From Diadema setosum (Eukaryota > Echinodermata > Echinoidea > Diadematoida > Diadematidae): DNA of 64,000 bases. This document shows, in pieces, positions 23,571 to 60,355 of this stretch. How positions within the stretch are numbered: position 1 is the stretch's first letter; each line of letters opens with the position of its first letter. The stretch covers positions 2,345,001 through 2,409,000 of the forward strand of contig NC_092702.1 in assembly GCF_964275005.1 (NCBI RefSeq), given 5' to 3'. The notes under the pieces were generated by a model that was given only the letters and a program-made list of their open reading frames with translations, did no database searches and was not told the DNA's origin. The position numbers and the translations under genes are program-made.

Positions 23571-23769
23571 TTGGACTTTATTGCAGAATCTTGTGACGAC
23601 AGTGCGTACAAATGAATAATATTTTGAAATATCACAGACACTTACGTAATTTTCTCTCTGGTCGGCTAAGATCATACTAATTTTGAAAATATACGGTGAA
23701 ATCCACTAAGTAACTGCGACCACATATTTGTAATCGGAGTTCAATTCCGTCCATGTTCACTTTTTCGTT
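23571..23769 (+). promoter_or_regulatory. U2 gene A 5' flank (snRNA promoter)
   Basis: These 199 bp are strongly similar to 58043-58242, upstream of U2 gene C, and the match runs up to the first base of U2. Conservation right up to the start, with no TATA box, fits an RNA polymerase II snRNA promoter. The block ACCACATATTTG about 60 bp upstream is shared; in gene C it continues as an octamer-like ATTTGCAT, whereas here it reads ATTTGTAA. Confidence 0.6.
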
Positions 23770-23957
23770 ATCGCTTCTCGGCCTTTTGGCTAAGATCATG
23801 TGTAGTATCTGTTCTTTTCAGCTTAATATCTGAAACGCGACTCACCGAGTCGCTTGTATATTAAACTGATTTTTGTACCTAGGCCATGGAATAGGGGCTT
23901 GCTCCATCCTGGCCACGGGTTGGCCCGGTATTGCAGTACCTCCGGGATCGGCCCACC
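23770..23957 (+). ncRNA. U2: U2 snRNA, copy A
   Basis: This is full-length U2 spliceosomal RNA, 188 nt. It begins ATCGCTTCTCGGCC, keeps the branch-site-pairing GTGTAGTATCTGTTC, the stem II hairpin GCGACTC-ACC-GAGTCGC, the Sm-site-like GATTTTTG, and the terminal stem-loop CCCGGTATTGCAGTACC. It is followed by GGTAAAAGTGAACCAAAGAAAGA, where a 3' processing box would be expected. Nothing in the body looks broken, so it may be functional. The 3' half differs from vertebrate U2 (GTACCTAGGCCATGG in place of GGAGCAGGG). Confidence 0.95.
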
Positions 23958-24130
23958 CCTACGGGGGTAAAAGTGAACCAAAGAAAGAATCACCTAAAAA
24001 TATCCTATGCACGTTTTTCTCTCCCTTCCGTATACCTCTCTCTCTCTCTCTCTCTCTCTATTTCTCTGCACCATTCTTTCCCATGTTTTTCTTCTACTAA
24101 ATTGTTTAAGGTTACAAATTATTTTCACAG

Positions 24131-24699
24131 GGACCTAGAGACGTTGTGGGCACTATCCACCATGCAAGGTTGTCTTCCAACCAACGCAGCCAGCCACCAA
24201 GCGGTGAAAACCCTATGCCAAGGGCAGATGTTATTCAATCACGAGGAAACTCTTCCAAACATTATCAGGTGGAACCACTGTCAGCCCAACATGGTACCAA
24301 TCAGACGTCGCCACGATACTATTCAACGATAACTATTCGTATATCCCAGGTGACCCACCGTAGAAAACGCCCAGACAAAACGGTCATTAAAGGATATACA
24401 AAATCACAATGACGTTGTGGTGCCATTCGACAACGGTCCAGAGGCTTGCACAATCACCGCAAATGCCAGGGTGGAAAAGTACTCCACCATCCGCCAGGTA
24501 CCTTGAGATGATGATAACTGCGTGGAAGCACATTTCATGGCTTCATCATGCGGGCGCCTTTGAGACCTGACAATACTGGGATACTGCCAATGAACGTACA
24601 ATGGGCAGACTTGGAATCAGCCGTAGATACGGGACTCTGATGCGGAAGTTATGCTGCATTTTATGTCATTTTTGATGGACTTCAGCACTTTATAAGTGG

Positions 24700-24748
<49 letters not shown>

Positions 24749-24796
24749 GTCTTCCCGAGACATCTACTCGGAGCACCTTACGGGACACAGACGGTA
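24131..24796 (+). mobile_element. RLE-type LINE remnant A (Utopia/NeSL-like), 3' end only
   Basis: The remnant starts about 170 bp past U2 copy A. It carries broken pieces of the C-terminal zinc-finger/endonuclease region: RRKRPDKTVIKGYTK, then in another frame VPFDNGPEACTITANARVEK. The RPD...D-V-PFDN...A-x-(A/K)-K-V-E-K-Y pattern is that of the restriction-like endonuclease of the R2/NeSL group. An (ATT)n run (24703-24746) and TCTTCCCGAGACATC close the 3' UTR, matching remnant B. Several stops and frame changes are present. The RT domain is absent here. Confidence 0.75.
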
Positions 24797-24928
24797 CAAG
24801 GAGCGCTCCGCTAAAGCTACTCATGTTCGTTCATATAGCCTTGCGGCTATCTCTCTTCGCTAAGTCTTTTGACTTAGCCTCTTTGGTGTTTTCTTGCTAG
24901 CCTTTTGGCTGGATATTTTTGTGTCATA

Positions 24929-26119
24929 ATGCAGCGCTCACTTCTGCGAGACTGCTCTGTACAAGTACTACTCAAGGATGGTGAAAGTACTTTTGATTGT
25001 TTAAAGAAATACGGAATTAACCCGTCTGACCACCTGACGGCAGTGCAAACCTTGTCAGGAAGTAAATTTGATGTTACGTTTCAAAACCAGAAAATCAAGG
25101 AGGAGTATGTGACAAAGTTGCAAGGAGAGGACGTTGGAGTTAACTGTTACTCCAAACCCATGAAGGTTGTGACGGTGTTGCATGTGCCCCATGAAGTCGA
25201 CGACAACGCCGTTCGATTCGTGTATGGCAAGGTGCTGGCGGGACGCTTCCTCACCCACAAGGACTATCCTGGCCTTTTTAATGGTATTCGACAGTACAAG
25301 ATGGAGCTGACGAGCAACATACCCTCGTCGATCAGTTTCGGAGGGAGGGAGTGTTGGGTGAGGTACGAGGGACAACCTCGGACCTGCTTGAAGCAGTGAG
25401 GTGGGATCTCTTCCCACCTCCCTGCTTGAAGTGTGGACAGAACAGCCACGAAGCAAAGGAGTGCAGAGTAGTGCGATGTTTTCGCTGCAGAAAGGAGGGG
25501 CACGTCGCCGGCGGGTGCACCGAGGAGCTGGCCTGCACCACATGTGGGAAGTCGGGGCACTCTTATAAGTCCCGTCCCATCAGCTTCGCTAATAAGTTGA
25601 AGCAGTCAACCTCGTGGGTGTCCGGAGGAGGGGAGGCAGTCGAGACCGGCGCAGGGCCGTCGACGTCGGAGAACAAGGAAGAAAGAGCTTTACCCAAAGC
25701 CTGTTTGATAACTCCGACAGCGACGAAGAGTCTGGCACCGCCATGGACACCCAGCGATCATGGGCTGAGCGGGTTAATCCGGAATCGGAAGACGTAAAGC
25801 CACCGGTCCCCGAGGCAGAGGTAGAAGACTTCACTGAGGTGAAGAAACGTGCTCCGTCACCAAGCACGGAGCGAGCCCGTCCCAGCCCCGGAATAGGGTG
25901 ACGGCGGCGAGTGAAGTAATCGCGGCGACCAATATTATCACGGAGAGAAAAGAGTGGGTCGCCTGCACGGCACCCAAATGTAAGAAGACTTTCAAAGTTT
26001 TTAATGACTTTGTGGACCACGTTAAAAGCAGTCACGCAGATGTCCCACTCGAGCGTTTTCCATGCCCCTATAAGTGTGCAATGACACTTGTAACAACCCC
26101 CGATAGCGCGATAGCGTAA
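24929..26119 (+). pseudogene. Tx1-type LINE ORF1 (zinc-knuckle RNA-binding protein), broken
   Basis: The frame opens at MQRSLLRDCSVQVLLKDGES (24929) and runs to GRECWVRYEGQPRTCLKQ. It then meets a 38-bp insertion with stop (TGA at 25397). The frame resumes with three CCHC knuckles: CLKCGQNSHEAKEC, CFRCRKEGHVAGGC and CTTCGKSGHSYKSR, the last having lost its final Cys. After another frame change comes an acidic low-complexity stretch (25690-25890). At 25960 there is a C2H2-like finger (CTAPKCKKTFKVFNDFVDHV then KSSHADV). ORF1 proteins of this clade bind the element RNA as chaperones. Removing the 38 bp would put the N-terminal part and the knuckles in one frame. Confidence 0.8.
25394..25431. 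repeat. 38-bp hairpin insertion with direct-repeat flanks in LINE ORF1
   Basis: CCTGCTTGAAG occurs at 25383-25393 and again at 25421-25431. Between the copies lies CAGTGAGGTGGGA-TCTCT-TCCCACCTC, a hairpin with a perfect stem GAGGTGGGA/TCCCACCTC. The 38-bp period is not a multiple of three, and the interruption is exactly where the LINE protein breaks, so this is a true secondary insertion with an 11-bp duplicated flank. Confidence 0.8.
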
Positions 26120-26259
26120 ATCATTTGAATAGCAAGCACCCCGACTATTATTTTGCGCCAGCACGGCACGCATTTTTTTCGATGATTACTTTTTTGAGAA
26201 ATTAGTGTCCTCCAAATATAAAGCATATCATTCAACATCAAGATATGCTCACTAACTTT

Positions 26260-29200
26260 AATGTATGGGTTACGGGACACTCAAAAATGTAGAAATGTTA
26301 TTTCATGGTTGAATATTTTAAGATTTAATATTGTTCTGTTACAAGAAACATATTTAAGTGAAGATGATTTGATGAATTATAAAAAGTTTTGGAGAGGACC
26401 TGTTTTCCACTCTCCGTCACCGTCCAAACATACGTCGGGCGTGCTTATAGCCTTCTCAGATAATTTATCCAGTTCATCTACACAAATTCGAAAAGATAGC
26501 GAGGGCCGCCTTGGTTCTATATTATGTACCTTTTCAACCTATACATTTCGTGTTTGCAATAATGCACCCAACGATCCAAGAAAACGAGTGGAATTTTTTA
26601 GTAATATTTATTCTTCTATACGTGGCAATATACCACTGGTTCTTGGGGATTTTAATTGTGTAATTGACCAAAAAGATCGTTCGTGCACCTCATTAAATTC
26701 ATCTTGTTTTGCAGGAAGGAAGGAGTTGATTAATGTCGTAGAATTATATAATTTAATAGATGCGTGGACAGAAAGTAATCAGTTAGAAGCCGGCCACACC
26801 TGGGCTCACCCTGGCAAAGGCCAAAGCTCAAGGATTGATATACTATATCTTAGTTATAAATTTGATATTATAAATGTCTAAAAAATTAATTTTCCTCTGT
26901 CGGATCACGATGCTGTGAGTTCTATTATATGCTGTCCACGAGAGAAAACTGCGAAATTCCAGTCGTATTGGAAGTTTAACGTTTCAGTGTGTAAAGATGA
27001 TTTAGTTGTTGAAGATTTTATTTTTTATTACCATATGTGGCAAACTTTAAAACCTGGTTATGCATCTATCATATAGATTGGTGGGAAAATATAAAGAGTC
27101 GCATAAAAGAGTTATCTATTATTCGCATGGAGTGCGGCGGGCTCGAGAGAGACGTCAGCGCTTGGAATCACTACAAAATACGTGTCTTTATGGACATGAA
27201 GAGGAGGTTAAAAATTTACTCAGGGAGGAAAATAGAGGGGCTTTTGTTCGGTCAAGAGAGAAATTTTTTAGAAGAAAGGGAAAGGCCAGGAGGATTTTTT
27301 TTTTCATAAAGTAGAACAGGCTAACGCAGAGTCTAAATTGATAAGAGAAGTGAGAAATTCTCAAGGAAACATTATGTCGGGTGATGATAGACTTCCAGTT
27401 TTTCATGAATTTTATACTAAATTGTACACACCTGACACCACTGTTGATAAAAACATACAGGATGTATTTATTAATTCACTTTCGAAAAGTATTAATGAAG
27501 ACAAATCAAACTCAATGGACAAACCCATTGAGTTAATTGAAATCAAAAATGCACTGGCATTAATGCCAAAGAATAAATCACCAGGTATAAATGGATTGTC
27601 AGTAGAATTTTATGTTCGATTTTTTGATGTTATTGGTAGTGATTTACTCAGTATATATAATGAGGTATTTTGTAATAAGTTGATGTCACAAACACAGCGA
27701 ACGGCAGTTATCACTTTACTGCCCAAGAAAGGGGACCCTTTGGATCCTGTTAATAGACGTCCAATAAGCTTGTTGAGAGTAGATTTACAAAATAATAGCA
27801 AAGATTTTACAATTAAGACTGTCAAATGTAATTGGGGATGTTGTTAACATTCATCAAATATGTTCTGTCCCCGGTAGGTCAATTTATCAGAATCTATGCT
27901 TACTATAATACGGGATATTGTAGACTGTTCAACTCTACGAGGGAATTCGTGTGCTCTCATTTCAATTGATCAGCACAAAGCATGTGATGAGGTAAATTGG
28001 GATTTTATGCTTAAAGTTTTGACAAAAATGAATTTCGGAGAACGGTTTATTGCTTGGGTAAAGATTTTATATACAAGCATTATTAGCCGTATATTTGTCA
28101 ACGGCCAGTTTAGCGAAGAGGTGATAATTGGGCGAGGCGTCCGACAAGGGTGCCCATTATCGCCGGCACTTAACATGTTTTGTTTATAGAGCCATTAGCG
28201 CGATATATCATGTCGCACAGGGACATAAAGGGTTTCCACATTCCCGGTGGGGGTGGGGCATCCATACATTATTACAGTTCGCTGACGATGCCACCTGCGT
28301 GGCAACGTCACAGTCTGACATTGTCAATTACTTTAAGTCTTTTACTCTTGTTGAGAAAGCAACGGGTGCTTCTTTAAATCTTAGAAAGACAAAGGGATTG
28401 AAGTTGGGAGCCTTTTGGGGGCGAAAAAGGGGATATTACTTGGATGGAAGATGAAATTATGATAAATGGTGTATGTTTTGGGAAAGCCCATTGCATTCGT
28501 TGTTTTTGGAAGTCTCTCTGTACAAAGCCATAGCAAAACTCACAGCTTGGGAAAACAGAGGGCTTACAATGTTGGGGAAAGTTGGCATTGTAAATACATG
28601 TGTATATTCTTTGTTTTATTATGCATCACGGGTATACCTCCCAGAAGACGACTTTTATAAAGAAATACTCAAAAGTGTGTTTAGGTTTATTTGGCAGAAA
28701 AAGACAGAACTCGTTTCTGGTGAACCTTGTTTCCTGAGCTCAGACAAGGGTGGTCTTGGTCTTCACAATTTGAGTCACACAATGCATGCTTTGTATATAC
28801 GTGATATGTTTCCACATCTATCTGGTACAGATACTGTTTCGTATAATTTTCTGTTTACTCGATATTTCATGGGATGTAAGCTAAGAAGAATTTTTCCACG
28901 GATGTGGTCTAATCTTGTGCCGCACAGCGATGTTATGTCTATGAATTATAGGCAGGCGTGGTCAATTATATCAGTCCTGTTTCAGCTAAATCCAAACTTC
29001 GCTAGTGTTTGCGGACGATTAGACCACATCGTGAATTTGTCGAAGGATTTTACTCCGCTTGTAGAGGTCGTTGACCCCTCGTGGGACTGGTCCTCAGTGT
29101 GGCGCATGAGTCAACATTCGATATTATGTAATGCTTTGAAGTCGTTTAGCTGGCGCTCTACACACGGAGCCCTGTACACACGCGAGAAGTTATCTCGCTG

Positions 29201-29645
29201 GGGGATTGTGATGGGGTATGCCCCTATTGTACGAAGATTGAAAACAGATACGACCATGTGTTTTGGGACTGTCGGTCAACTAATCAAATAATTTATTGGG
29301 TTTCAGAGTTAACTAGGCGGTTACTAGGGCCTGGAATATCCCTAAATCGGAAACTGGTTTTGTACGGAACCCCCTTTCCGGTCAAAAACCAAAGAGTATG
29401 GGGAAGGATATGGTTTATTTACGTTGTCACTCGAAAAAATATGTGGAATCGCCGATGTTCGTTTATTTTTGAGAATAAGCCACATGTCGGACGATGCGTT
29501 GATCACAAAGATTAAAGAGGAAATCCAAATTTGTATTTTAGCTGATTTTAAAAGAATGTCCAGTGCCAAATTTAAAGAAACATGGATAGATGGGTCTTTA
29601 TTCTGTTCTGTTCAAGGACAAGAAATCAATATTAAGTTGCCATAA
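26260..29645 (+). pseudogene. Tx1-type LINE ORF2 (endonuclease-reverse transcriptase), broken
   Basis: Pieces in three frames line up in family order. The apurinic-type endonuclease lies at 26261-26880 (VLLQETYLSED, LVLGDFNCVIDQKDR, GHTWAHPGKGQSSRID). The RT finger/palm spans 27530-28450: NKSPGINGLSVEFY, TLLPKKGDPLDPVNRRPISL, VRQGCPLSP and the catalytic box LLQFADD (F in place of the usual Y). The thumb and C-terminus cover 28470-29515, with MLGKVGIVNTCVYSLFYY, KTELVSGEPC and the W-rich tail MWNRRCSFIFENKPHVG. Roughly eight or more stops and frameshifts divide it. Order and motifs place it in the L1/Tx1 group. Confidence 0.85.
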
Positions 29646-30087
29646 TGTGTTATATGAATAAATTAACAACTTTAAATAATTCAGTCTGGTATTAAAAGTG
29701 ACGATCTTTTTGTCTTCACTACCTCACAACATGCTTGCCTTAATTTGTAAATAATGTACATATATTTAAACTGTTTATGTTACTCAATAGATTTTTGTAA
29801 GAATAAGTCACGGTTATAGTCTTAACTCCATATTCCTGAACGTTTATTCAAGAAGAATATATTATGCAGTACATTAGAGTGTAAAGTTACTCAATTTCGG
29901 GCAACAAGGTATTAAAACAGGCTGAAAGTGTGCCGACATTAAAAGTTATATCGACAATGATGTTTAGTTTAAGTACTGTATGATTCTCAATAAAGGATTC
30001 ATTTTATATTCATGCATTTGCCATTTGTAATTATTGTATATATGTTCAGAGTTTTGATGAATAAAATTGAAAGAAAAGTATCTGTTT

Positions 30088-30127
30088 GTTGGCCCGGTAT
30101 TGCAGTACCTCCGGGATCGGCCCACCC
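30088..30127 (+). pseudogene. U2 snRNA 3' fragment, copy B, at LINE junction
   Basis: Forty bases, GTTGGCCCGGTATTGCAGTA... to GGCCCACCC, are identical to the 3' end of U2 copy A. They cover the last stem-loop of U2. The 5' three quarters of the gene are missing and the Tx1-type LINE takes their place. The normal U2 3' flank (GGTAAAAGTAAACCAAAGAA...) follows. Confidence 0.9.
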
Positions 30128-30288
30128 CTTCGGGGGTAAAAGTAAACCAAAGAAAGAATCGCGTAAAAAAATTAATATCCTTTGCACATTTTCCTCTTCC
30201 ATCCATATCTCTCTATTTCTCTGCTGCACCATTCTTTGACATGCTTTTCTTCTACGAAATTGTTTAAGTTTACAAATTATTTTCACCT

Positions 30289-32220
30289 AGGGACCTAGAG
30301 ACGATGTCGGCACTATCCACCGTGCAAGGCTGAACTGTTTTTTAACCAACGCAGCCAGCCAGCCACCAAACGGTGAAAACCCTGTGCCAGGAGATGTTAA
30401 TTCAATCACAAGGAAACTCTTCCAAACATTATTAGGTGTAACCATGTTAGCCCAACATGGTAGGCCTACCAATCAGACGTCGCCACGATGCCATTCAACA
30501 CTTCATTGTGGCCATCAAACACGGCGACATCTATGTCAACCAAAATGTCCCAGGTCGCATGGCAGATCGCATCAAGAGGTGGGCCTGTGACAACGATCTC
30601 CTCAGTGCTGAGCAGAAGAGCGCCCGTCCATGTGAGGGGTGCTATCTAGTATGAACACACCTTTCACCTTTCGTCAGCTCTGAAGGACTGTAGGAGAAAT
30701 CAGAAACAGGCATCCATCGCATGGCTGGATTTGAGAAACGCTTTCGGTAGCATCCCACACCAGGCAATGTACATCGTCCTTGAAACTCTCGGTGTCCCCA
30801 ACGATGTTGTTCTCCTCCTGAAGGATATCTATACGGACGCTATGACAACGTTCTCAATGCCAAGTGGGGAAACTGAAGCTGTACAGATCCAGGCAGGTGT
30901 AAAACAGGGCTGTCCCATGTGAGGGGTGCTATCTATGAACACCCACCTTTCTCCTTTCGTCAGCTCTGAAGGACTGTAGGAGATATCAGAAACAGACATC
31001 CATCGCATGGCTGGATTTGAGAAACGCTTTCAGTAGCATCCCACACCAGGCAATGTACATCGTCCTTGAAACTCTCGGTGTCCCCAACAATGTTCTCCTT
31101 CTGAAGGATGTCTATACGGACGCTATGACAACGTTCTCAATGCCAAGTGGGGAAACTGAAGCTGCACAGATCCAGGCAGGTGTGAAACAGGGCTGTCCCA
31201 TGTCGGCGGTGCTCTTCAACCTCACCATAGAACTCATTATCAGAGCCATTCAGAGGCGAGCTGCAGATGAGCATCTTGGCTTGACAGTCCACGATCAACA
31301 GCTGTCCATCCTGGCCCATACTGACGACCTCGTGCTCCTTAGCAAGTCACCTGAGGGTCTTGAAGGGCTACTGGCCACGGCTTCCGTTCAAGCTGACATC
31401 TTGAATCTCTCCTTCAAGCCAACCAATATGTGCCTCACTCTGCCTAAACTGTCGACATGGAACCACTGTCCTCCCACGGACGTTTACCATCCGAAGAAGA
31501 ACAGTACCGCTACCTGGGAGTAGCAACAGGCATGCCTCGCTTCACCAATATCACAAACCTAATCGAAAAGCTGAAACAGAATCTTGACACAATCACGACA
31601 TCGCTCATAGCTCCATGGCAGAAGATAGTTGCCAGGTCTCAACTTTGTGATGAGGGCAGCCGACTATCTGAAGTCAGATCTTCGCAAACTACGCTCCTGC
31701 ATCACGAAGAACATAAACAAGGTCTGCAAGCTTCCGACACGTGAAGTGGCTCAGTCAACCAAAATGTCCCAGGTGACCCTCCGTAGGGAACGCCCAGACA
31801 AAACGGGTCATCCAAGGATATTCAAAAACACAATCATTTTTAATTGACGTTGTGCCATTCGACAACGGTCCAGAGGATTGCACAATCAACGCAAATGCCA
31901 GGGTGGAAAAGTACTCCACCCTCCGCAAGGCACTCCGAGATGCTGGTAACGGCGTGGAAGCACATGGCTTCATCATTGGCGCCTTCAAGACCAGGCATAC
32001 TGCCAATAAACGTAAAGTGGGCGGACTTGGAGTCAGCCGTAGATACAGGACTCTGATGCGGAAGTTCAGTGCTGCATTTTATGTCATTTTTGATGGACTT
32101 TAGCACTTTTTAAGTGGCCATTATTATTATTATTATTATTGTCATCATTTTTATTATTATTAAGTCTTCCCGAGACATCTCGGAGCACCTCATCCACGGG
32201 ACGCAGTACTAGGAGTAACA
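30289..32220 (+). mobile_element. RLE-type LINE remnant B (Utopia/NeSL-like), rearranged
   Basis: The remnant starts at the same point past the U2 3' flank as remnants A and C. Order: a scrap of the C-terminal region (30310-30560); then RT pieces with LSAEQKSARPCEGCY, IAWLDLRNAFGSIPHQAMYI and QIQAGVKQGCPMS; and finally the endonuclease end (31850-32103) with VPFDNGPEDCTINANARVEK, KRKVGGLGVSRRYRTLMRKF and a TAG stop. The RT segment is tandemly duplicated (about 285-bp period; first copy 30630-30915, second from 30916). The catalytic aspartates of RT are in ILAHTDDLVLLS, with T in place of the usual A. The 3' UTR has (ATT)n and TCTTCCCGAGACATC. Confidence 0.8.
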
Positions 32221-32532
32221 CCACCCTGTGTCAAATTGAACTCTAATCGTCCAGCTTTCATCATTGATGATATGATTTTATCTCCTTCCGCTCTTCAACA
32301 CAAAGAACAACCATTTATCGTCCAGATAAATCTTATACATAAATTTTGGTGTGCAAATTCATCAACATCTTGAGTGGTCAAATCAAATTGATTCATTTCA
32401 TAGAAAACTAAAAACCGACATGTGAACATTTTGTGAGTCTGTTTTGCATGCATAGCCAATCTTAGCGAAGCAGAGATGTACATGCACTTACATACACATA
32501 ATTTTTTTTTTTTCAAAAGCAACAGTGGTTTT

Positions 32533-33140
32533 TGTCGAGCTCACCGGAGGTGAGGGGAGACTAAGGGATCACCTGCGGCGTCTGTCCGTCCGTCGTCCGT
32601 CCGTCCGTAACGCTACAAAAACTTCAATAACTCTTTATTCTGGGCTTCAACTGTATTTAAACTTCTAGGGAAGTGGGGTCATACAAAGTTTCACATTTTA
32701 CCATATATGAAGGTCACCTCAAGGTCAAAGCTCACAGGCAGGGATCAATGAACTTTTAGAGCCCAATGTTAAGTTTCTATGGCGCGTTTCTATTATGGGT
32801 CATAACTTTTGATCCATAACCCCGTTTGTGACTAAACTTGGATGGTAGATGCCCCTTGGGGAGTGGATGGTCACCACAAGGTCAAAGGTCACAGGCAGGG
32901 GTCAACGAACTTTGAGGGCCCAATGTTAAGTTTTTACAGCACGTTTCTTTTTTGCCATAAACTTTTACCCTTTTATATCTCTTTTTATCTGTTGTATCTC
33001 TTTTTGTCTTGTAGATCTCTGTACATCTTCCTTAATATTTTTTTTGCCATTTATTTTTACCCTTTTATATCTCTTTTTATGTTTTATATCGCTTTTTGTC
33101 TTTTATATCTCTTTTTATCTTCCTAAATATTCTGCATAGG
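32533..33140 (+). repeat. Composite satellite element, family S1, copy 1
   Basis: The head TGTCGAGCTCACCGGAGGTG is followed by GGGGAGACTAAGGG and a (GTCC)n run (32580-32610). Then come about two 140-bp units with AAGGTCAAAGGTCACAGGCA and the phrase AACTTTTGATCCATAAC, and finally T-rich TATATCTCTTTTTATC repeats. The same head occurs on the other strand at 45725 and 50068. Confidence 0.8.
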
Positions 33141-33239: not shown

Positions 33240-36200
33240 CAAACTGTGGAAAGGACTTTTGCCATGAAAAAAAAAAAAAATACAAGCATTCTTGCTATAT
33301 TTGCAAGTTATGTAGAAAAAAAAAAATCCCCAAAAAGGATCATCTGCAACGTCACACCTGTAAACTGCATTTAGTTTGCAATTTATGCAAAAGAATAATT
33401 TTCTTCGTCACACAATCTTCAAAAACATCTGTGTTCATTTTGTGGTATATGTTAAAAGAACTTTAGTTCTTTTCAACGCAAACAGGTACATGTTTGCCCC
33501 AAGGTTGTTAATGAAAATCCAGTTAAAAAACAACTGGCTGGAAACATGCAACTAAAATCGAAGACCATTCATGAAAATAAAACAGAACAAGAGGCAGCAA
33601 GTGTAAGTCAGCATGTAAAGAACCGGCCAAAGCAACAGTCTGTTGATAGCTGGCAAGGACTTTCCTCAAATCCTCATTTCATGCAGCGACACAAACTGCA
33701 ACTGTCAGATATTATAACACACAGCCACACCTGCAAGAAAAAGACATCTAAAAGGCAGCCTACTTAGCATTGCAACTGCATTTCAGGTCAAGTAGAGGGT
33801 TTGGTTTCATAAACACGTCCCCACCAGATGAAAGACCATTCATCGTGATGTCTGCAGAAGAATTGGAAAGGTTACCAGATGATTCAGAGGACATCAATGT
33901 GGAAACATATCACGGTATTCCTGCAGACCCAAAGAGCTGGAGCATCTATGTCTTGCAGAATTTGAGGCTAATTATGATTCAGTCAACAAATCAAAGAAGC
34001 AAAAAAAAAAAAAAAAAAAATGAAAGCACTTCAGCTGAGTTACCTGAGAGTGACTATGAACCTAACATAGAGGATGATGCTCCAGATCCTGAGCATGGCA
34101 TCCAGTGATGTCAGACTCACAGATGGATCACTTGTCAGAAGACGCAAACACCAGAGAGTAATCCGATATCGGAGGTATTCTCTAAAGAAAGATCCTGAGA
34201 ATTACTACAGAGAAATGCTCATGCTTTTTTTTTTATCCTTGGAGGAATGAAGGAAGAATCATGGATGGACAGGAATCCTATGAAGACAAATACAAACAGG
34301 TGGAAGCACAAATTCTCGCAAAGAAAGCAGAATATGAAAAAAATGTGCAGGAATTGGATGATGCAGAGGAGCAACTGGAAAAAAAAAATGAGGAAGATGA
34401 AAGCATGGAAATACACTTGCTCCATGTAATATCCATCTAAATCAGCAGGATCAAGACAATGATAGAAATGCAGAGGCTAATGCAGAGGATCTATACAAGC
34501 AAAGCGATATGGGAGAAGATCTTGGATTGGCAGCTGGTGACCAATTCCAAGAAACGCTCAGGAATCGGGTTTCTGATGAGGAATTTAGGGGAATGGCGAG
34601 ATCCCTCAACCAAAAACAAAGAGAAATATTCTATCACATCCTTCATGTAGCAAAGACGGCAAATTCTCAACAATTCATCTTTCTATAAGTGGTGGAGCAG
34701 GGGTTGGAAAAACACGTGTCCTTCATTCTCTGTATCAAGCTCTTGTCAAGCATTACAACACCAAAGAAGGTCAAAACCCAGAAGAGATCCGTGTTCTTTT
34801 GACAGCACCAAATGGAAAGGCTGCATACCTCATAAAAGGTAGTACTCTGCACGGTACTTTCCATATACCTGCTAACCAGGGGTTCAAGTATAGAATCTAC
34901 ATCATGATATGCTTAACTCACTGCGCTGCAAGTATCGTCAACTCAGATTTCTGTGCACAGATGAAATTGCTATGTGTGGGTCAAACATGTTCCAGTTCAT
35001 CAATTTGAGATTGCCAGAAATCATGGGGAATAGGTCGCCTTTTGGAGGTGTCCATGTTCTTTGTGTGGGTGACCTCTTCCAGCTACAGCCAGTCATAGAC
35101 AAATGGGTCTTCCAAGTATCAGCACAAGATTATTCTCCATTATCTCCTAATGTGTGGCTTGATCACTTCAGAATGTACGAGTTGACGGAGATAATGAGGC
35201 AGCGAGATGACAAGTCCTTTGCTGAGCGTCTCAATCGTTTGAGAGAAGGGATTCAAACAAAGGATGATGTTGCGCTGCTGAGTTCAAGGATCATTCAACC
35301 TAGCAATACTCTGTACCCTGCTGATGCCACTCACATCAAATATTTCAACAAATCAGTCCAGGAACAGAACAATCAAGCTTTGATCACAGCAACCACAGAC
35401 AGAGTAATAATCGGGGCTGCAGATATTGTCATTGGAGATGTACCCAGCAGTGTCAAGGAAAAGGTAAAAGAAAATGCTCCAACATATCCTGGCCAAGCAA
35501 TGGTTTAGGAAAATTTGTTCAAACAGCCATTGGACTAAGGATGGAAATGACAGTAAATGTGGACACATCTGATGGCTTGGCCAATGGTGCAGGTTGCATA
35601 ACAAAGCAGTATGAATACAAGCATGCAAAGACTGTTCCATCTATCATTTGGGTTCAATTTGATGATTTGGACATTGGAAAGCAGCTCCGTTCACAGTCCA
35701 AACACCTGTATCACGATGGTATAGATGAGACCATGACAACAATTTCTACTATCACGACAGAATTCCCCGTTGGAAAGTATAAACATGCAAAAATTCTAAG
35801 AAGACAGTTTCCCCTCCAGTTAGCCGTGGCAAAAATTGTCCATTGATGTCAGGGAGACTCCATGAAAAGTGCAGTTATTGAATTCCCAAATCAGAAAAAG
35901 ACCCATCTGCACTATGTTGCCTTGAGCAGAATCACAAACCTTCAGAATGTGTTCATTATCAACAGCATCCATGCAGACAAGATCCAGGTGTCAAAAGAGG
36001 TTAAACAAGAGATGACGCGTCTGCGAACAGAAGGCAAACTTGAACTGTCTTTTGTCCCACTTTACAGCATGGACGAACGTTTTACGTTTTTAAGATCTGT
36101 TTTCACAATGTTCAAAGCCTCCGCCTACACAGAGATGATGTTGAAGCAGATTACAACTTTCAGCAGGCAGACATCAACATGTTTGTTGAAACCAAGCTTT

Positions 36201-36725
36201 GTTCCAAGGATGCTGATACTGAAGTACAGCTTCCTCGGTTTAGGATGTATCGCAATGATTATGCTCAGCAAAGATCTCATTATAGAAGTGCCATTTTTTC
36301 AAAAAGAGGAGGTTTCAAGCTCCTGTACTTCACTGAATGTTGGCAATGTGGAAGGTACTCTAGCATCTGTTGCAAGTCCTGTCAACCTCTACATTGTCTG
36401 CATTTACTGCAGACCCAAGGAAACTGCATGGAACATCATGTCAGCACTGCTCAATCTGAAAGAGTATCTGTCTGAAGACAAAGACGTAGTCATAATGGGT
36501 GATTTCAATGTCAATGCAGATCCATCATCACCTCCCTACAAAGCCTTACAGAGGCAGATGAATGATCTCAACTGCAGACAACTCCTCAGCAAGCCTACAA
36601 CTAATGGAGGAACAACAATTGATCATATCTACACTTTACTGAGAGAGGATATCATCCAATAAGGTACTATGGAGTCATACTTTTCATACCACAAACCTGT
36701 CTGGATAGGAATCACCAAATCATTG
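33240..36725 (+). mobile_element. Helentron-type rolling-circle transposon, broken
   Basis: The recognisable order is: C2H2-like finger text near 33280-33480; the Helitron-linker phrase RPKELEHLCLAEFEANYD at about 33925; a Pif1-like helicase with Walker A LSGGAGVGKTRVLHSLYQAL (34690) and a DE box CTDEIAMCGSNMF (34950); the GDLFQLQPV motif; the helicase C-terminal block THLHYVALSRITNLQNVFII (35900); and then an apurinic-type endonuclease (ADINMFVETKLC, VVIMGDFNVNADPSSPPYKA, GGTTIDHIYT). Helicase followed by endonuclease marks the Helentron/Helitron2 branch. No Rep HUH motif was found, so that part is deleted or beyond recognition. Frameshifts and stops are numerous. No clean terminus was identified. 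Confidence 0.85.
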
Positions 36726-48300: not shown

Positions 48301-51300
48301 GTCCATCCGAGCTGCCTGTCTATAAATCAAAAGGGTCTTTGTTTTGGGGAGTTACGTATAAAAAGGGCAATGACTGTCGAGGGTCAAGAACCTACTGGCA
48401 GAAACTTTAACCTTGCACGTAACAGAATTGGGGAACTAGTCTACAAATTCAGACACAAGAGGGGGTGTATGTCTGTCGCCTTACAGGAAGATAAACCCCA
48501 AGAACAATGTGGATTGAGTGAAAGCAGCAACATTAGTAGAACACATCAGTGAAAGTTTGAAGAAAATCGGACAATCGATGCAAAAGTTATGAATTTTTAA
48601 AGTTTTGGTGTTGGAACCGCTGGATGAGGAGACTACTAGAGGTTATGACGTATGAGTGGACTACAATATCAAGAAAATATAAAGAAAATACTACAAAAAT
48701 CCATTTTTCATGAAAATTACAAATTCCATCAACTTGATATTGACATATGTTAAGGGTAGCAATTATTCCCCCTGCTTTCTGAAAGCGGTTGGTCCACTGC
48801 TCTTTCATAATTCTAGAAAAGTGAATTTTTGTTGAATATCCTTCATATTTTCTTTGTATTGTTGTCCACTCATACATCATATCCTCTAGTAGTCTCCTCA
48901 TCCAGCGGTTCCAACACCAAAACTTTAAAAATTCATAACTTTTGCATCGATTGTCCGATTTTTCTCAAACTTTCACTGATGTGTTCTACTAATGTTGCTG
49001 CTTTCACTCAATCCACATTGCTCTTTGGGTTTACCTTCCCTTTAACATTGCGCTCTGAAAGTTTGTTGACCCATGCTTGTGACCACTGACCTTATGGTGA
49101 CCATCCACTCCCCAAGGGACATCTACCATCCAAGTTAAGTAAATGGACTTAGGGATCAAAAGTTATGACCCATAATATAAACGTGCCATAAAAACTGAAC
49201 ATTGAGCTCTAAAAGTTCGTTGACCCCTGCTTGTGACCTTTGACCTTGTGGTGATCATCCACTCCCCAAGGGACATCTACCATCCAAATTTAGTCACAAA
49301 CGGAGTTATGGATCAAAAGTTATGACCCATAATATAAACGTGCCATAAAAACTTAACATTGGGCTCTAAAAGTTCGTTGACCCCTGCTTGTGACCTTTGA
49401 CCTTGTGGTGATCATCCACTCCCCAAGGGACATCTACCATCCTAATTTAGTCACAAACGGAGTTATGGATCAAAAGTTATGACCCATAATAGAAATATGC
49501 CATAAAAACTTAACATTGCGCTCTAACAGTTTGTTGACCCATGCTTGTGACCACTGACCTTGTGGTGACCATCCACTCCCCAAGGGACATCTACCATCCA
49601 AGTTAAGTACAAATGGACTTAGGGATCAAAAGTTATGACCCATAATAGAAACGCGCCATAAAAACTTAACATTGGGCTCTAAAAGTTTGTTGACCCATGC
49701 TTGTGACCATTGACCTTGTGGTGACCATCCACTCCTGAAGGGACATCTACCATCCAAGTTTAGTCACAAATGGAGTTATGGATCAAAAGTTATGACCCAT
49801 AATAGAAACGCACCATAAAAACTTAACATTGGGCCCTAAAGTTCATTGAACCCTGACTGTGAGCTTTGACCTTGAGGTGACCTTCATATATGATAAAATG
49901 TGAAACTTTGTATGACCCCTATTCCCTCAAGGTTTGATTGCAATTGAAGCCCAGAGTAAAGAGTTATTGAAGTTTTTGTAGCGTTACGGATGGACGACGG
50001 ACGGACGACGGATGGACAGACGCCGCAGGCAATCCCTTAGTCTCCCCTCACCTCCGGTGGGCTCGACAAAAATCACCCATACCTACAGTGCTAGATCTAT
50101 ACCTATGTCGTGATATTCTAATCTAAATCTATACGTGTAGATCTACACCTACAATGTATATTACCAAGGGAGCAAATTTGCTCACATTTTATTTTTCAAA
50201 TTCACATTTTTGCTTACAAGTTCACAAAAGTATTCTGACCTCTAGAACTAGGTCTAGGTCTATGTACATACTGTACTTAGTTCTTGTAACATTCCAATAT
50301 TGATTTTTATTACAAAAATAGTTTATCAAAATTAGAAATTTAGATGCACATTTCAGCTATTAGTGTCAAGATGCAATTTTGGTTATATCTTTTCTACGAG
50401 TTGTATGTAGATGTGGTCAGTAGGCCTATAGCTTGCTTTAACTGAGCACATAGGTTATAGGTGTGGTATTACTATTAACCACACTTACCAGTAGTAGTAC
50501 TAGCACTACATATGTCTTCAGTTAGAGTATGGCTATACAGTATACTGACCACCTAAATACAAATGAAGAGTTTGTTCACAAAAACCGATACGTCCATATT
50601 TGCCAAATGGAGATATTTGCGATTAAAGGTCAAGAAAAGTAAAGAGAATAATAAGAAAACAAGGAAAAGTAGAAATTACGCGGTGCGTAATATATGTCCC
50701 CGCCGGAAGTAGCATTTTGTAGCAAATGTACAATACAGGTCAAAAATCAAGGTCAAAGGTCAAAATTCTGTGTAGAAGTTCTGAAGCCCTCACCTAGTGC
50801 CATCACATAAAGCAAACGGAATCGAAATCGGGTTAGAAATGGCGAAGGAGTAGCATTTTGTAGTAAAATGTACAATACAGGTCAAAAATCAAGGTCAAAG
50901 GTCAAAGAAGTCAAAGGTCAAAATTCTGTGTAGAAGTTTTGAAGCCCTCACCTAGTGCCATCACATAAAGCAAACGGAATCGAAATCGGGTTAGAAATGG
51001 TGAAGGAGTAGCATTTTGTAGCAAAATGTACAATATAGGTCAAAATCAAGGTCAAAGGTCAAAGAAGTCAAAAGTCAAAATTCTGTGTAGAAGTTTTGAA
51101 GCCCTCACCTAGTGCCATCACATAAAGCAAACGGAATCGAAAACGGGTTAGAAATGGCGAAGGAGTAGCATTTTGTAGCAAAATGTACAATATAGGTCAA
51201 AGGTCGAGGTCAAAGGTCACAACTGAAATTCTGTGTAGAAGTTTCAAAGCTCCCATGTAGTGCTATCATATAAAGCAAACAGAATCAAAATCGGCTCATA

Positions 51301-53403
51301 AATGACAGAGAAGTAGCAAATTGAACATTTTGATCACACACGGACGCACACACAGACGGACGGACAGACAGACGGACGGACGGACGGACGGACACACGGA
51401 CACACACACGTACGGAGCCCGTTTCATAGTCCCCTGCTCGAACTCGTTCGGCGGGGACAAAAATTGCTTCTTTTGACCATAACTTCAAAAATGTACCTTT
51501 ACATGTAGTGACTAATATATCATTCAAAAGGTATTATTTTGTACTTTATAACAGAGACCATACTTCAAAATCTTCAAAAATGGACTTATCGGTTTTGGAA
51601 ACAAACTCTTCAAATATCTATTTTAAACCCATCTTGCCCTGCATGGGTCATTACTAGGATCCTGTCATGGGCCTTTTATTCTTTCTGGGTTTTTTTTTTA
51701 AATTGGATATATTGTTACCTCTGTCTCATTGCTCCTCTGTTCCTTTATTATAATGGGATCAATAAAGTGATGATTAAAAAACATAGAGAAACTGTATGAC
51801 CAGAGTGCAGAGACAGAGTTGCATTCTGACAGCTGAACAGTGACATGTGCATCTACATTTCACATTCTGCTAAACTATTTTGTAGTCAAAATCAATAGAC
51901 CCTAGGGTATTTGAATGATACAAGTACTTTTACATAGTACTGAGTAATAATTTTGTGAACTTGTAAGTTAACCAAATAAAAAAATAATAAAATAATAGAA
52001 ATAAAGTTCACAATTGGAAGTTGGCAGGAGCAACCGTGTCAGTTGGTAATATACATTGTACATACAAATCATGAAATAGGCCCCATCCCCACCTCAGTGC
52101 GGCTGCATGCATGGCCATGCGGTAGTAAGTAAGGTTAGGTTAGGGTTAGGGTTTAGGGTTAGGTAAGGTTGTATTTATAGTTAATTTGGCTGTTAAATTA
52201 GTCAAGGGACATTAGGGAGTCCTTCAGAGAATAAAAAGTTGAAGACCAAAGAAATAAACGGGAGAAAGAGAGGACGAAAGATGATATGCTGTGGAAATCG
52301 GCCCCACCGCTGTATCAATCTAACGTAAACGCCGTTTGGTGGGTTGTTGCTGTTGTAATCATAATTTTTTTTTTTTTTTGCCGTCGCATTCACAACTCGA
52401 ATATTTCACACTGAACAATTTATCATTATATTTCTAATACATCACTTTGGTTTTTTTTTTCACACTTATCACAAACAAAATAATGTAAAAAATAATACGT
52501 GAAATGAACATAATAAACTGTCCTTTGCACTGGTCCACTCAACCAGCCAATCGCGCGCTGTCTTGTAATGGTATATCTTGCCAACCCAGCTATGTACGCT
52601 ACGTTTCGCAGGCTTCTCAGTAATCAGCACAAAGGCCTAGGCCACTCATATACACGGAGGGCAGATGGGATCATTTTGGTGGGGCCGCATTCATGAGTAT
52701 TTGATAATTTATACTGTGGAAGAAAACCTCACCCGGCAGAGCAGAGAGCTCCACAAATCTAAAAGAACAACAACACTACACATGATCTTAGCCAAAAAGG
52801 CCAAGAAGCGAACAACAACAACAACCCACCACCGTGCTTATACTGGAACACCACAGGGTGGCCGAGAGGGTTATACTTAATAGGCGAGCCGCGCCGCCGG
52901 CCGGCCGCCGTAGTAATCTACTAGGCCCTACTAGGTCTATTGATGTACAACATATTGACTATTATTGTACTATAAACGTTAGAGTCTAGTATATGGACAC
53001 GCAGTGCAGTGCCTGGCAGTGGTGGGGTCTATTTCACGAGTAACTTATGCCGGCTGCCATTATGCCGATAGAATATCACGTTATAGGTATAGCACTGGAT
53101 CGTAGGGGTGCTGAACACGCACATATTGGTGACTGCAGGTAGCTGTAGGTATATGTGGGGGTGATTCATTTGTAAACCAGCTTCCGAAATTAGGCACGAC
53201 TAGTGGTAGTACTACCGAACGTCTTTATGAATGAGTGGGACTGAAATGCGAGAAATCTAACGTCGTCATCCAAGTCTTCTAGATCTAACACTGGATTTCA
53301 TTTCTTAAGAGGTAGGCCTACGTCAAGTCAAACTACTACATCTAAATGATAATTATTTAGTTTTAGAAGATTGACTTACAGATAACTCATCCAGTTCGCT
53401 CAT
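38520..53403 (-). CDS. Myb/SANT-like DNA-binding protein with a spectrin-repeat-like exon
   Basis: Six minus-strand exons join in phase: 53403-53380 (MSELDELS), 44425-44318, 43554-43453, 42994-42829, 41623-41505 and 39002-38520. The product has 333 aa. Exon 2 (36 aa, phase 0-0) reads DLGKDVNSVLSLVRKHETCG, which matches the D-x-G-K-D-x-x-S-V-x-x-L-x-R-K-H-E helix of a spectrin repeat. Exons 3-4 form a Myb/SANT-like trihelix: RTKLSGAEVQLLCSYVKEHY, HEAWNKAAEVMGSQGF and DHLRDLWQKMLSRAKKYRDE, as in NAIF1/Harbinger-accessory-type proteins. Exon 6 is a Ser/Pro/Gln-rich tail ending DDISPVSSPVIPLDVGCV. A nuclear DNA-binding role is inferred. Intron 1 is about 9 kb of repeats; CpG-rich DNA at 53404-53640 is the likely promoter. 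Confidence 0.8.
39300..39370. repeat. (TA)n(CA)n microsatellite
   Basis: A TA run followed by a CA run in intron 5 of the Myb/SANT-like gene; the rest of this intron up to 39860 shows nothing recognisable. Confidence 0.9.
39863..40967. repeat. Composite satellite element, family S2
   Basis: The ends TATGCCTCCGCCAT (39865) and ATGGCGGAGGCATA (40952) form inverted repeats. Inside are about five diverged units of roughly 150 bp, each holding TTGACCTTTTGACCTTTGACC-type text and a TTTCAAG/AAGTTTC phrase, and a (GGAC)n array (40886-40916) next to the right end. Confidence 0.8.
43600..44290. repeat. Tandem C-rich satellite, family S4
   Basis: Two to three units of about 300 bp repeat phrases such as GATGATCCCCACCAAG, TGAAATCTGCC and GAAGAAGAAGA. 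The array lies between exons 3 and 2 of the Myb/SANT-like gene. Its right edge (GATGCACGACGCACAACAGACGGC) resembles the decayed edge of a GACG array. Confidence 0.6.
44455..45770 (-). repeat. Composite satellite element, family S1, copy 2
   Basis: Seven or so tandem units of about 145 bp lie head to tail (AACTTAACATTGGGCCCTAA, GTGACCTTTGACCTTGTGGT, AAGTTTGGTCACAAATAGAC, GATCAAAAGTTATG). They are followed by a GGAC/GACG array (45635-45680) and the S1 head CCTCCGGTGGGCTCGACA on the minus strand. The units are very alike, so the array is young or homogenised. It starts about 30 bp upstream of exon 2 of the Myb/SANT-like gene. Confidence 0.85.
46676..49044. mobile_element. 2.4-kb TTAA-flanked insertion within the S1 satellite
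   Basis: The surrounding satellite breaks at TTAA and resumes at TTAA. The insert begins AGGGAATCTCGCACC and ends, inverted, AGGGAAGGTAAACCC. Its right part (48481-49044) is a foldback unit of its own. Its left part has, on the minus strand, a TATATATCC box near 47800, AATAAAGTTGATT near 46900 and a GGGATGGGGCGTCTC minisatellite (47220-47310). A short plus-strand frame (47945-48256) is not recognised. The left part could be a solo terminal repeat of some retroelement, but this is not established. Confidence 0.55.
48481..49044. mobile_element. Foldback element, family c
   Basis: The arms are about 180-200 bp. Left arm: ACAATGTGGATTGAGTGAAA, then AATCGGACAATCGATGCAAA, then TTGGAACCGCTGGATGAGGA. 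The right arm repeats these inverted (48850-49040). The centre near 48700-48830 is unpaired. The right terminus abuts TTAA; the left reads TTAC. Confidence 0.8.
50695..51459. repeat. Composite satellite element, family S3
   Basis: The termini TGTCCCCGCCG (50695) and CGGCGGGGACA (51449) are perfect 11-bp inverted repeats. Inside are four units of about 140-160 bp with GTAGCATTTTGTAGCAAA, ATCAAGGTCAAAGGTCA and ATAAAGCAAACGGAATC, then a (GGAC)n array (51350-51400) by the right end. The architecture is the same as S1 and S2. Confidence 0.85.
52120..52175 (+). repeat. Short TTAGGG-like tract
   Basis: GGTTAGGTTAGGGTTAGGGT followed by TTAGGGTTAGGTAAGG: about seven telomere-like units with slips. 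Unlike 4245-4448 and 56774-56973, no flanking inverted repeats were found. Confidence 0.75.
52759..52811 (-). pseudogene. U2 snRNA 5'-end fragment, antisense
   Basis: The minus strand reads TCGCTTCTTGGCCTTTTTGG, then CTAAGATCATGTGTAGTG and TTCTTTTAG. This follows the first 50 or so bases of U2 (TCGCTTCTCGGCC...GTGTAGTATCTGTTCTTTTCAG) with a handful of changes. Both sides are GTT-rich. The rest of U2 is absent, so this is a retroposed fragment or the head of a U2-derived SINE. Confidence 0.7.
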
Positions 53404-53640: not shown

Positions 53641-53762
53641 AACGGATTTTCTGACAATTTTTTCGGACAGTTGTCAGCGCCGACTACATGTATATTGATG
53701 AAACACCCCCAGATAGTGCAGCTGAATACATGGACAATCCAGCCGTTTTCTCAGATGGAAAA

Positions 53763-56665: not shown

Positions 56666-56773
56666 GCCACCTATAGACCAATAAATTGTATAGGGTGTCC
56701 TGATAATGGCATAAGAAGTATGAGAGATGGAAAAGAAGAGTTGCCAGGGTGTAACCCCATCTGTTGCCCCGGC

Positions 56774-56973
56774 AGCGTGTTTTTTTAGACGGCACAGATT
56801 AGGGACCCTAACCCTAACCCTAACCCTAACCATCAAACCCTAACCCTAAACCTAACCCTAACCCTAACCCTAGCCCTAACCCTAATCCTAGACCCTAACC
56901 CTAACCCAACGTGTTTTTCCATAGGTTTAATACGCGTCATGCCCCAATCTGTGCCGTCTAAAAAAAAAAACGC
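56774..56973. mobile_element. TIR element carrying a telomere-like array, 8-bp target duplication
   Basis: GCCCCGGC flanks the unit on both sides (56766-56773 and 56974-56981). The inverted ends share TTTTTTTAGACGGCACAGAT. The interior (56810-56905) is about fourteen CCCTAA-type units with slips. The 8-bp duplication fits hAT-like transposition. It is unrelated at the ends to the element at 4245-4448. Confidence 0.8.
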
Positions 56974-57049
56974 GCCCCGGCCACCCCCTGAAATGATCAG
57001 GATCTTTAATATGTTTGCGTGGGTGTGTGTTTGTGAAAAAATAAACAAA

Positions 57050-58010: not shown

Positions 58011-58042
58011 AATTTGTCAGTGTTGACAAATTCCAAATCTAG

Positions 58043-58242
58043 TTGGACTTTATTGCAGAATCTTGTGACGACAATGCGTACACATGAATAATATTTTGAA
58101 ATATTACAGACACCTACATGATTTTCTCTCTGGTCGGCTATGATCATACTAATATTTGAAAATATGGGGTGAAATCCACTGAGTAACTGCTACCACATAT
58201 TTGCATTTGGAGTTCAATTTCTTCCAAGAATCATATTTCGGT
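58043..58242 (+). promoter_or_regulatory. U2 gene C 5' flank (snRNA promoter)
   Basis: Homologous to 23571-23769. It contains CATATTTGCATTTGG; ATTTGCAT is the octamer word (inverse of ATGCAAAT) used in distal elements of many snRNA genes, although it lies only about 45 bp from the start here. Confidence 0.55.
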
Positions 58243-58429
58243 ATCGCTTCTCGGCCTTTTGGCTAAGATCATGTGTAGTATCTGTTCTTTTCAGCTTAAT
58301 ATCTGAAACGCGGCTCACCGAGTCGCTTGTATATTAAACTGATTTTGTACCTAGGCCATGGAATAGGGGCTTGCTCCATCCTGGCCACGGATTGGCCCGG
58401 TATTGCAGTACCTCCGGGATCGGCCCACC
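58243..58429 (+). ncRNA. U2: U2 snRNA, copy C
   Basis: Full-length, 187 nt. It differs from copy A at few positions: ACGCGGCTC in place of ACGCGACTC in stem II, GATTTTG in place of GATTTTTG at the Sm-like site (one T shorter), and CACGGATTGG in place of CACGGGTTGG. The branch-site-pairing GTAGTA and the last stem-loop are intact. The G substitution in stem II opposite GAGTCGC still allows a G-T pair. Confidence 0.93.
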
Positions 58430-58501
58430 CCTACGGGGGTAAAAGTGAATCAAAGAAAGAATCACCTAAAAAATATCCTTTGCACATTTTCCTCTCCCAT
58501 A

Positions 58502-58542
<41 letters not shown>

Positions 58543-58611
58543 TTCTCTGCATCATTCTTTCCCATGCTTTTCTTCTACTAAATTGTTTAAGTTTACAAAT
58601 TATTTTCACAG

Positions 58612-60355
58612 GGACCTAGAGACGATGTGGGCACTGTCCACCGTGCAAGGCTGAACTGTTTTCTAACCAACGCAGCCAGCCACCAAGCGGTGAAAACCCT
58701 GTGCCAAGAGCAGATGTCAATTCAATCACGAGGAAACTCTTCCAAACATTATTAGGTGTAACCATTGTCAGCCCAACATGGTACCAATCAGACGTCGCCA
58801 CGATGCTATTCAACACTTCGTTGGGGCCATCAACCACGGCGATATCTATGTCAACCAAAATGTCCCAGGTCGCATGGCAGATCGCATCACGAGGTGGGCC
58901 TGTGACAACGATCTCCTCAGTGCTGAGCAGAAGAGCGCCCGTCCATGTGAGGGGTGCTATGAACACACCTTTCTCCTTTCGTCAGCTCTGAAGGACTGTA
59001 GGACAAATCAGAAGCAGGCATCCATCGCATGGCTGGATTCGAGAAATGCTTTCGGTAACATCTCACACCAGGCAATGTACATCGTCATTGAAACTCTCGG
59101 TGTCCCCAACGACGTTTTTCTCCTCCTGAAGGATGTCTATACGGAAGCTACGACAACGTTCTCAACGTCAAGTGGGGAAACTGAAGCTGTACAGATCCAG
59201 ACAGGTTTAAAACAGGGCTGTCCCAAATCGGCGATGCTCTTCAACCTCACATAGAACTCATCAGAGGCAGAAGATAGACGTCATATAAAGACCTTCGTCC
59301 TGCCAGGTCTCAACTTTGTGATGAGGGCAGCCGACTACCTGAAGTCAGATCTTCGCAAACTACGTTCCTGCATCACGAAGAACATAAGGTCTGCAAGCTT
59401 CCGACACGTGCAGCCAACTCGTACATCTTTGCAACAAGAGAAGTTGATGGGCTGGCATTCATCGACCCCAACGTTGATGCAGACATTCTGGTCCTTACAC
59501 AGGTTGTCCGTGTGCTGTCATCTGAAGACACAACGGTCCGTTCAGTTGCAACGAAACAGCTCACATCTGTTGTTCACCGAACGATACATGCAGCACCCAC
59601 TGATAAAAGACATCGACAAGTATCTGTCCGGCAGCAGCGAGGGACCACTGGCTAACTCCGACACTTCTGGTCAAGCATCATCCCTCTGGTCCAGAGGTAG
59701 AGCTGCTGTGCGGAGACTGTAAGTGAGGATACGTGGTGCAACCAGCAGCTCAGTCGTTGTCGAGTATCGACTACCAGAAAGTGGAAGAACGACAGAAGTT
59801 GTGTCAAAAGGTGTAACAACAGCGTTGAGGCAGTTGCAAAGGATCAGATCTGCCCAAAGACTCAAATCTCTCCCTGACCAAGGAAAGGTGGCAAGGTCTT
59901 TGTCCAACGATCATTTTTGCTAACGGCTCTTCGTGGCACGCCTCCGAGAGGTTCATGAGGTTCTGCGACTGGAACTTTATCCACCGTGCCCGACTCAACT
60001 GCCTTACCACCAACGCAGCAGCAAAGAGATGGAAACCTGACTCAGACGCCAAATGCTGTCGATGATCTAGCCAAGAGACGCTTCTACATGTCCTCAATCA
60101 TTGCCACAAGAACATGGTACCGATCAGACGACGACATGACCTTGTCCAGGACAGACTGGTGCGAGCCATCAAACATGGTGACTTCTTCGTGAATCAGAAC
60201 GTACCAGGTGATCCGGACCCAAGATAGAGACCAGATATCACTGTCATCGAGGGACGCAAAATCACCATAGTTGATGTGTCGATCCGGGTATCCCCTTCGA
60301 CAACGGTCCGGACGTCTGCAGCATTGCAGCAAACGCAAAGGTTGAGAAGTACTCT
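58612..60355 (+). mobile_element. RLE-type LINE remnant C (Utopia/NeSL-like), rearranged
   Basis: Order along the sequence: a scrap of the C-terminal region (58640-58870); the RT domain (58870-59254) with LSAEQKSARPCEGCYEHTFL, IAWLDSRNAFGNISHQAMYI and QIQTGLKQGCPKSAMLFNL; the connector (59320-59910) with ANSYIFATREVDGLAFIDPN and VVRVLSSEDTTVRSVATKQL; and a second C-terminal region (59960-60345) with the zinc-finger piece ETLLHVLNHCHKNM and RPDITVIEGRKITIVDV. The first C-terminal scrap is homologous to the second, so a partial copy has been joined in front. Several stops and frame changes divide it. Confidence 0.8.

Follow-up and report, generated by a model that had tools for sequence, protein, structure and literature searches.

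Within a 64,000-nucleotide stretch of the Diadema setosum genome (the window; C18:2345001-2409000 in an assembly of 912.7 Mb and 102 contigs), U2 snRNA sequence is found at three sites with remnants of the same LINE downstream. The initial annotation had left two explanations side by side, namely, that this LINE targets the neighborhood of U2 genes or that a unit consisting of U2 and the LINE was duplicated. The persistence of several LINE families on a few-copy target is termed "not well understood" in PMC4640811, and since both kinds of U2 LINE occur in one long-contig assembly, intact and occupied sites can be counted.

U2 genes and the three units of the window

A genome-wide search with Rfam RF00004 gave 43 matches (46 candidates scored), including 31 full-length U2 genes: 25 on contig C2, three on C14, one on C9, and two in the window. 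The C2 genes form a tandem array with a spacing of mostly ~1.4 kb. The remaining matches were four U2 3' parts following copies of the Keno-like LINE described below (three on C2 and one on C9), one U2 5' part ahead of such a copy (C9), three partial U2 copies (C1, C7, and C10), and four matches below the cut-off.

The window contains three units, designated A, B, and C, all on the plus strand. In unit A, a U2 5' flank (23571-23769; 87.9% identity to 58043-58242, with 24 differences in 199 columns) is followed by a full-length U2 gene (23770-23961; 189.9 bits), a 3' flank with a CT repeat (23962-24125), and a remnant of an RLE-type LINE (24126-24803), which is truncated at the 5' end, retains the RLE domain and 3' UTR, and has a 5' border uncertain by ~30 bp. 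In unit B, the U2 sequence (30078-30129) consists of nt 36-44 (30078-30086), one T, and nt 150-191 (30088-30129), nt 1-35 and 45-149 being absent; it scores below the Rfam gathering score and is therefore missing from the Rfam matches. It is followed by a 3' flank (30130-30286) and an RLE-LINE remnant comprising the RLE N-half, RT, thumb, RLE C-half, and 3' end (30287-32215). Unit C consists of a 5' flank aligned with that of unit A (58043-58242), a full-length U2 gene (58243-58433; 176.2 bits), a 3' flank (58434-58606), and an RLE-LINE remnant with the RLE N-half, RT, thumb, and a second RLE copy, from which the 3' end is missing (58607-60355). The U2 genes of A and C align with a T-run that is one T shorter in C, a run that we take to be part of the Sm site.

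The 3' flank (~165 bp) and the RLE LINE after it could be aligned colinearly and without a break across A, B, and C, with a common border between flank and LINE. The inter-unit matches extended over 117 to 858 columns with E-values of 0 to 1e-46, exceeding chance, and ~200 bp 5' of U2 are common to A and C (from 23571 and 58043). The arrangement first noticed, three U2 sites (23770, 30088, and 58243) with the same 3' flank and the same LINE, was thus confirmed, with complete U2 genes at 23770 and 58243 and a mere remnant at 30088. Except for ~25 bp after U2, the flanks of nine other U2 genes (three on C14, five on C2, and one on C9, from the 29 located elsewhere) were unlike those of the window.

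Another U2 piece beyond unit B was looked for, but a U2 search of the window (E ≤0.01) gave only 30088, 52761-52811 on the minus strand, and 58243. The minus-strand match is a solitary U2 5' piece (nt 2-49; 88% identity), and no LINE was noticed in the surrounding 600 bp. Other features of the window include long ORFs at 34894-36662 with a helicase-like and then an endonuclease-like part (read by eye), the helicase motifs being presumably of the PIF1/Helitron type, and mutually related tandem arrays with a period of ~157 bp at 44461-46677, 49042-50076, and, in reverse, 32525-32966.

Divergence of flanks and LINE

The divergence of flank and LINE was compared for each pair of units with the CT repeat excluded, so that the 3' flank samples were small (~105 columns for each pair). 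A and B differed at 9/105 flank and 54/542 LINE positions (Fisher p 0.86), B and C differed at 7/106 and 31/615 (p 0.48), and A and C, with both flanks counted, differed at 28/304 and 13/202 (p 0.32). Flank and LINE are therefore equally diverged in all pairs, a result that favors unit duplication. These values replaced a table in which the CT repeat had been kept and in which the flank of B and C appeared more diverged (16/151) than the LINE (9/201 and 22/411), with a smaller excess in the other pairs; the higher B-C value is attributed to an alignment effect of the repeat. The U2 genes of A and C differed at 2/191 sites, a low divergence that would be expected under constraint or gene conversion.

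Together with the upstream ~200 bp common to A and C, the equal divergence points to one copied insertion rather than three. As far as can be read from the sequences, the simplest reading would be that the RLE LINE inserted once and that the unit, U2 gene included, was copied afterward. Independent insertions at a single site, ~165 bp past each of the three U2 genes, would account for the identical LINE start in all units, but A, B, and C share a 5' truncation point, A and C have a common 5' flank, the divergence is equal, and the 20 kb around U2 on C14 and the 20 kb on C9 contained no RLE LINE. Such repeated insertion is most improbable and was rejected on the basis of the divergence and the common borders.

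Domains and genomic distribution of the RLE LINE

The copies of the RLE LINE found here are all broken, and in this state they show no single ORF that would join the RT and RLE in one protein, as in Utopia. The RVT_1 domain was detected in units B (64.6 bits) and C (35.1 bits; cut-off, 29.6), and a C-terminal RPDI...IVDV stretch, read by eye, was taken to be the RLE motif. In B and C (30287-32215 and 58607-60355), the element is rearranged, with the RLE N-half standing before the RT, and unit B additionally contains a 300-bp RT piece in tandem duplicate; perhaps this represents a collapsed tandem insertion.

The best PDB matches of the RT were R2 proteins. An RLE lineage specific for U2 is known in Utopia of the NeSL clade (Kojima and Jurka 2015; PMC4640811, in part). 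The element might instead be NeSL-, HERO-, or R2-like, outside Utopia, with an independently evolved association with U2, and among solved structures, its RT is indeed nearer to R2 proteins than to L1. Nevertheless, Utopia is the sole RLE lineage given for U2 genes in the excerpted text of PMC4640811, and the habits of Utopia fit (few copies, an intact upstream U2, and a missing U2 5' end); an origin outside Utopia was judged improbable.

Relatives were sought at the DNA level with 30260-32240, for which 40 of 551 candidates were scored, and with 59290-60360 (3 of 3), and at the protein level with the RT piece (150 of 2391 scored), so that all counts are lower bounds. Among the candidates scored and with an ATT repeat set aside, the only DNA relative beyond the window was a relic at C2:28014937-28015668. 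The relic has the orientation of the U2 genes, lies 1.8 kb beyond the final gene of the main U2 array, covers the LINE from the thumb to the RLE, and has no recognizable 3' end; the spacer of the last C2 U2 gene could be traced to ~460 bp before it. The other out-of-window matches among the 106 obtained with 30260-32240 fall in the (ATT)n of the query (positions 1824-1909). The protein search returned, among the 150 of 2391 candidates scored, the query itself, two window pieces (at 89% and 79%), followed by a relative at 36% on C2 (L053), of which 5 kb contained no significant U2 match. When 20 kb of C14, 20 kb of C9, and 100 kb of C2 were examined, the only trace of the RLE LINE was the relic just described, past the final C2 gene, other matches being the ATT repeat and weak similarity to RTs of other LINEs.

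All four RLE-LINE remnants found (three in the window and one on C2) adjoin U2, and no copy away from U2 was present among the candidates scored in the DNA and protein searches. As an estimated ~0.02% of the genome is taken up by U2 clusters with their surroundings, a chance landing of the second copy there is unlikely. The RLE LINE looks U2-bound. The initial annotation had held that U2 genes without the LINE and LINE copies without U2 would argue against targeting, and here the evidence was split: among the 31 full-length U2 genes, 28 have no RLE LINE adjoining them in the surrounding stretches, the exceptions being the genes of units A and C and the final one on C2, while LINE copies without U2 were not found among the candidates scored. 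Both original explanations are supported in part, duplication for the three units, through the divergence values, and targeting at the family level, since U2 adjoins every RLE-LINE copy among the candidates scored and one junction fits insertion at the site used by Keno and Utopia.

A Keno-like LINE at U2 nt 36

The element at 24804-30077, decayed and of the APE type, is probably Keno-like, a name chosen for its target and architecture. Keno was reportedly described as a U2-specific LINE by Kojima and Fujiwara in 2004. The 3' end of the element is set by its junction, while the 5' end was placed from the length of the leader (24804-24928), with ORF1 starting at 24929. In the copy on C9, ORF1 is open with three CCHC motifs (by eye), and ORF2 is open with an APE (Exo_endo_phos, 51.2 bits) and an RT (RVT_1, 91.2 bits). 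The window copy is disrupted by stops and frame changes; its Exo_endo_phos match reached 24.2 bits, slightly below the cut-off of 24.5, and the piece at 27272-27847 gave no family match. Amino acid identity between the two copies was 31-59% for the ORF1 pieces and 40-51% for the ORF2 pieces.

The 18-mer TTGAAAGAAARGTATCTG joins the Keno 3' end to U2 nt 36-42. Exact occurrences numbered five genome-wide, all within U2, and nine additional places had one mismatch; at ≤2 mismatches, there were 332 places versus 213 for a reversed control pattern. Because U2 nt 36-38 read GTA, the junction is stated as nt 36-39, in agreement with the published targets of Keno (TCTGTTC; PMC6136364, in part) and Utopia (U2 nt 39; PMC4640811, in part). 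The U2 sequence ahead of the four other Keno copies comprised nt 1-30 in three cases and nt 1-48 in one. On C2, the element occupies three U2 genes, and in each of them U2 nt 1-30 lead into TCGCGAAA-ATG at the same 5' junction. These copies are 91-97% identical to one another over the aligned parts, and the spacer around them is mostly 95-98% identical, with one 236-bp piece at 88%; in this array, Keno seems to have been multiplied by unit copying as well.

When the window copy was used as a DNA query, 23 matches were obtained, of which 13 were in the window or in the U2 clusters of C2 and C9. The 10 located elsewhere were 33 to 384 bp in length (the longest, C10:3495524, at 67%), so that no long Keno copy away from U2 was among the 23 matches; distant relatives do exist. 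Like the RLE LINE, Keno was thus found only beside U2. The 23-nt target AAGATCATGTGTAGTATCTGTTC remains in 35 exact copies, 31 of them in full-length U2 genes.

The partial U2 copies on C1, C10, and C7 were considered as target insertions and rejected. Those at C1:36818393 (L054; nt 1-61) and C10:35169727 (L055; nt 1-59) gave no Keno or RLE match and are U2 pseudogenes ending at nt 61 and 59 with an intact, unoccupied target site. At C7:28410201-28413700 (L056; minus strand), U2 nt 5-95 stand before LINE-like coding sequence of a distant LINE, in which RT matches, all weak, follow at 1.5-2 kb; this piece may be a template-jump chimera.

Leaders of the Keno copies

The leader preceding ORF1 measures 125 nt in the window, 108 nt on C9, and 8 nt in the C2 copies. 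In the C9 leader (L042:3329-3438, minus strand), two matches to U2 stem-loop I were found, the first with a Smith-Waterman score of 32, which 0/5000 dinucleotide shuffles reached, and the second with a score of 28, lower than the top shuffle score of 30. In the window leader, an 11-base match to stem-loop I is weak, 91/5000 shuffles reaching the same. Strong hairpins were predicted for the window leader (z -4.1) and weaker ones for C9 (z -1.85). In the C2 copies, U2 nt 1-30 itself serves, 8 nt before the ATG. Possibly, the U2-like stretches in the Keno leaders are relics of transcripts from the U2 promoter that carried U2 5' ends.

Proposed stacking of two LINEs at one U2 position

The window Keno copy stands between the RLE-LINE 3' end of unit A and U2 nt 36 of unit B, with no U2 5' part between the RLE-LINE 3' end and Keno, and its ORF1 begins 125 nt after that 3' end. 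The RLE-LINE 3' ends of A and B agree up to 24803 and 32215, respectively; in B, non-U2 DNA follows. Among the remnants found, no RLE-LINE 3' end directly abutted U2 nt 36.

The explanation that we favor somewhat is a Utopia-type insertion, then unit duplication, then stacking of Keno at the same position. An RLE LINE of the Utopia kind would have inserted once in the U2 cluster, at the position used by Utopia and Keno, and would have removed U2 nt 1-35 and the upstream spacer of the target gene, an outcome that places it behind the intact upstream U2. The unit of U2 promoter, U2, 3' flank, and LINE would next have been multiplied through recombination inside the cluster to yield A, B, and C, and the Keno-like APE LINE would have entered the same position afterward, between the RLE-LINE 3' end of A and the U2 of B from nt 36 onward. 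We infer the stacking from one junction; the Utopia identity, the original junction of the RLE LINE with U2 nt 36, and the order of events are inferred as well.

The non-U2 DNA after the RLE-LINE 3' end of unit B counts against stacking, and deletion of nt 1-35 is a real alternative because the same U2 also lost nt 45-149. In a passive version of events, a nonspecific RLE LINE would have happened to insert on the 3' side of a U2 gene and the unit would have been copied, with Keno and a deletion taking the U2 5' part in B. The equal divergence of flank and LINE, the non-U2 DNA after the unit B LINE, the second loss in the unit B U2, by which deletions are known to happen there, and the 28 of 31 U2 genes without an adjoining RLE LINE all agree with this version. 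It would, however, require a deletion that stopped near the ends of both elements, and among the candidates scored across the 912.7 Mb, the sole further relative at the DNA level is also beside a U2 array in the same orientation. Passive duplication was therefore considered rather unlikely, and insertion, duplication, and stacking remained the preferred reading. More tentatively, with somewhat less than even confidence, we suggest that two LINE lineages with unrelated endonucleases compete and stack at one U2 nucleotide, Utopia arriving first and Keno re-using the position at the Utopia 3' border, and that Keno is driven by the U2 promoter, its leaders recording earlier cotranscription.

With respect to target occupancy, 31 U2 genes are full length and five U2 genes carry Keno. 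The U2 clusters copy their passengers, the RLE LINE on C18 and Keno on C2, and in-array copying would thus be a possible means of persistence without new insertions.

Comparison with known U2-specific LINEs

According to PMC4640811, Utopia occurs in sea urchins, starfish, and others, and in Phytophthora, Utopia-disrupted U2 genes lack nt 1-38 and have intact U2 genes upstream. With Keno set aside, the arrangement in the window is this Phytophthora pattern. The RLE LINE resembles Utopia in its RT and RLE-like motif, in its very low copy number with all found copies beside U2, and in having an intact U2 upstream while the U2 5' part is absent. Unlike Utopia, it shows no direct U2 3' junction, Keno intervening in unit A, and all copies found here are decayed. 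The Utopia relative YURE enters a U2-derived satellite (PMC4640811, in part).

Keno is an APE LINE of the Tx1 clade and U2 specific, as cited in PMC4640811 and PMC6136364. The element described here is like Keno in the CCHC motifs of ORF1 and the APE and RT of ORF2, as seen in the C9 copy, and in its 3' junction at U2 nt 36-39, with 5/5 exact junctions in U2. It differs in that the window copy is preceded by the 3' end of another LINE rather than by U2 nt 1-35 and in that the leaders hold stretches resembling U2 stem-loop I, of which no description was met in the portion of the literature covered.

The initial proposal of two unrelated retrotransposon lineages on one snRNA locus was right, the two being the RLE LINE and the APE Keno-like LINE. 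That Keno and Utopia share one U2 site had, however, already been published (PMC4640811, in part). Their shared targeting is known, and the novelty of the nested arrangement is limited to its being a new example. The open-licence PMC papers returned by searches, as far as their listings show, do not describe Keno nested with Utopia in a single U2 gene. The nearest parallel is in Nasonia, in which U2 genes carry tandem Utopia insertions (PMC4640811, in part): there, as proposed here, a U2-specific LINE has entered a U2 position already occupied by another, but whereas both are Utopia in Nasonia, the two elements in the window belong to unrelated endonuclease classes.
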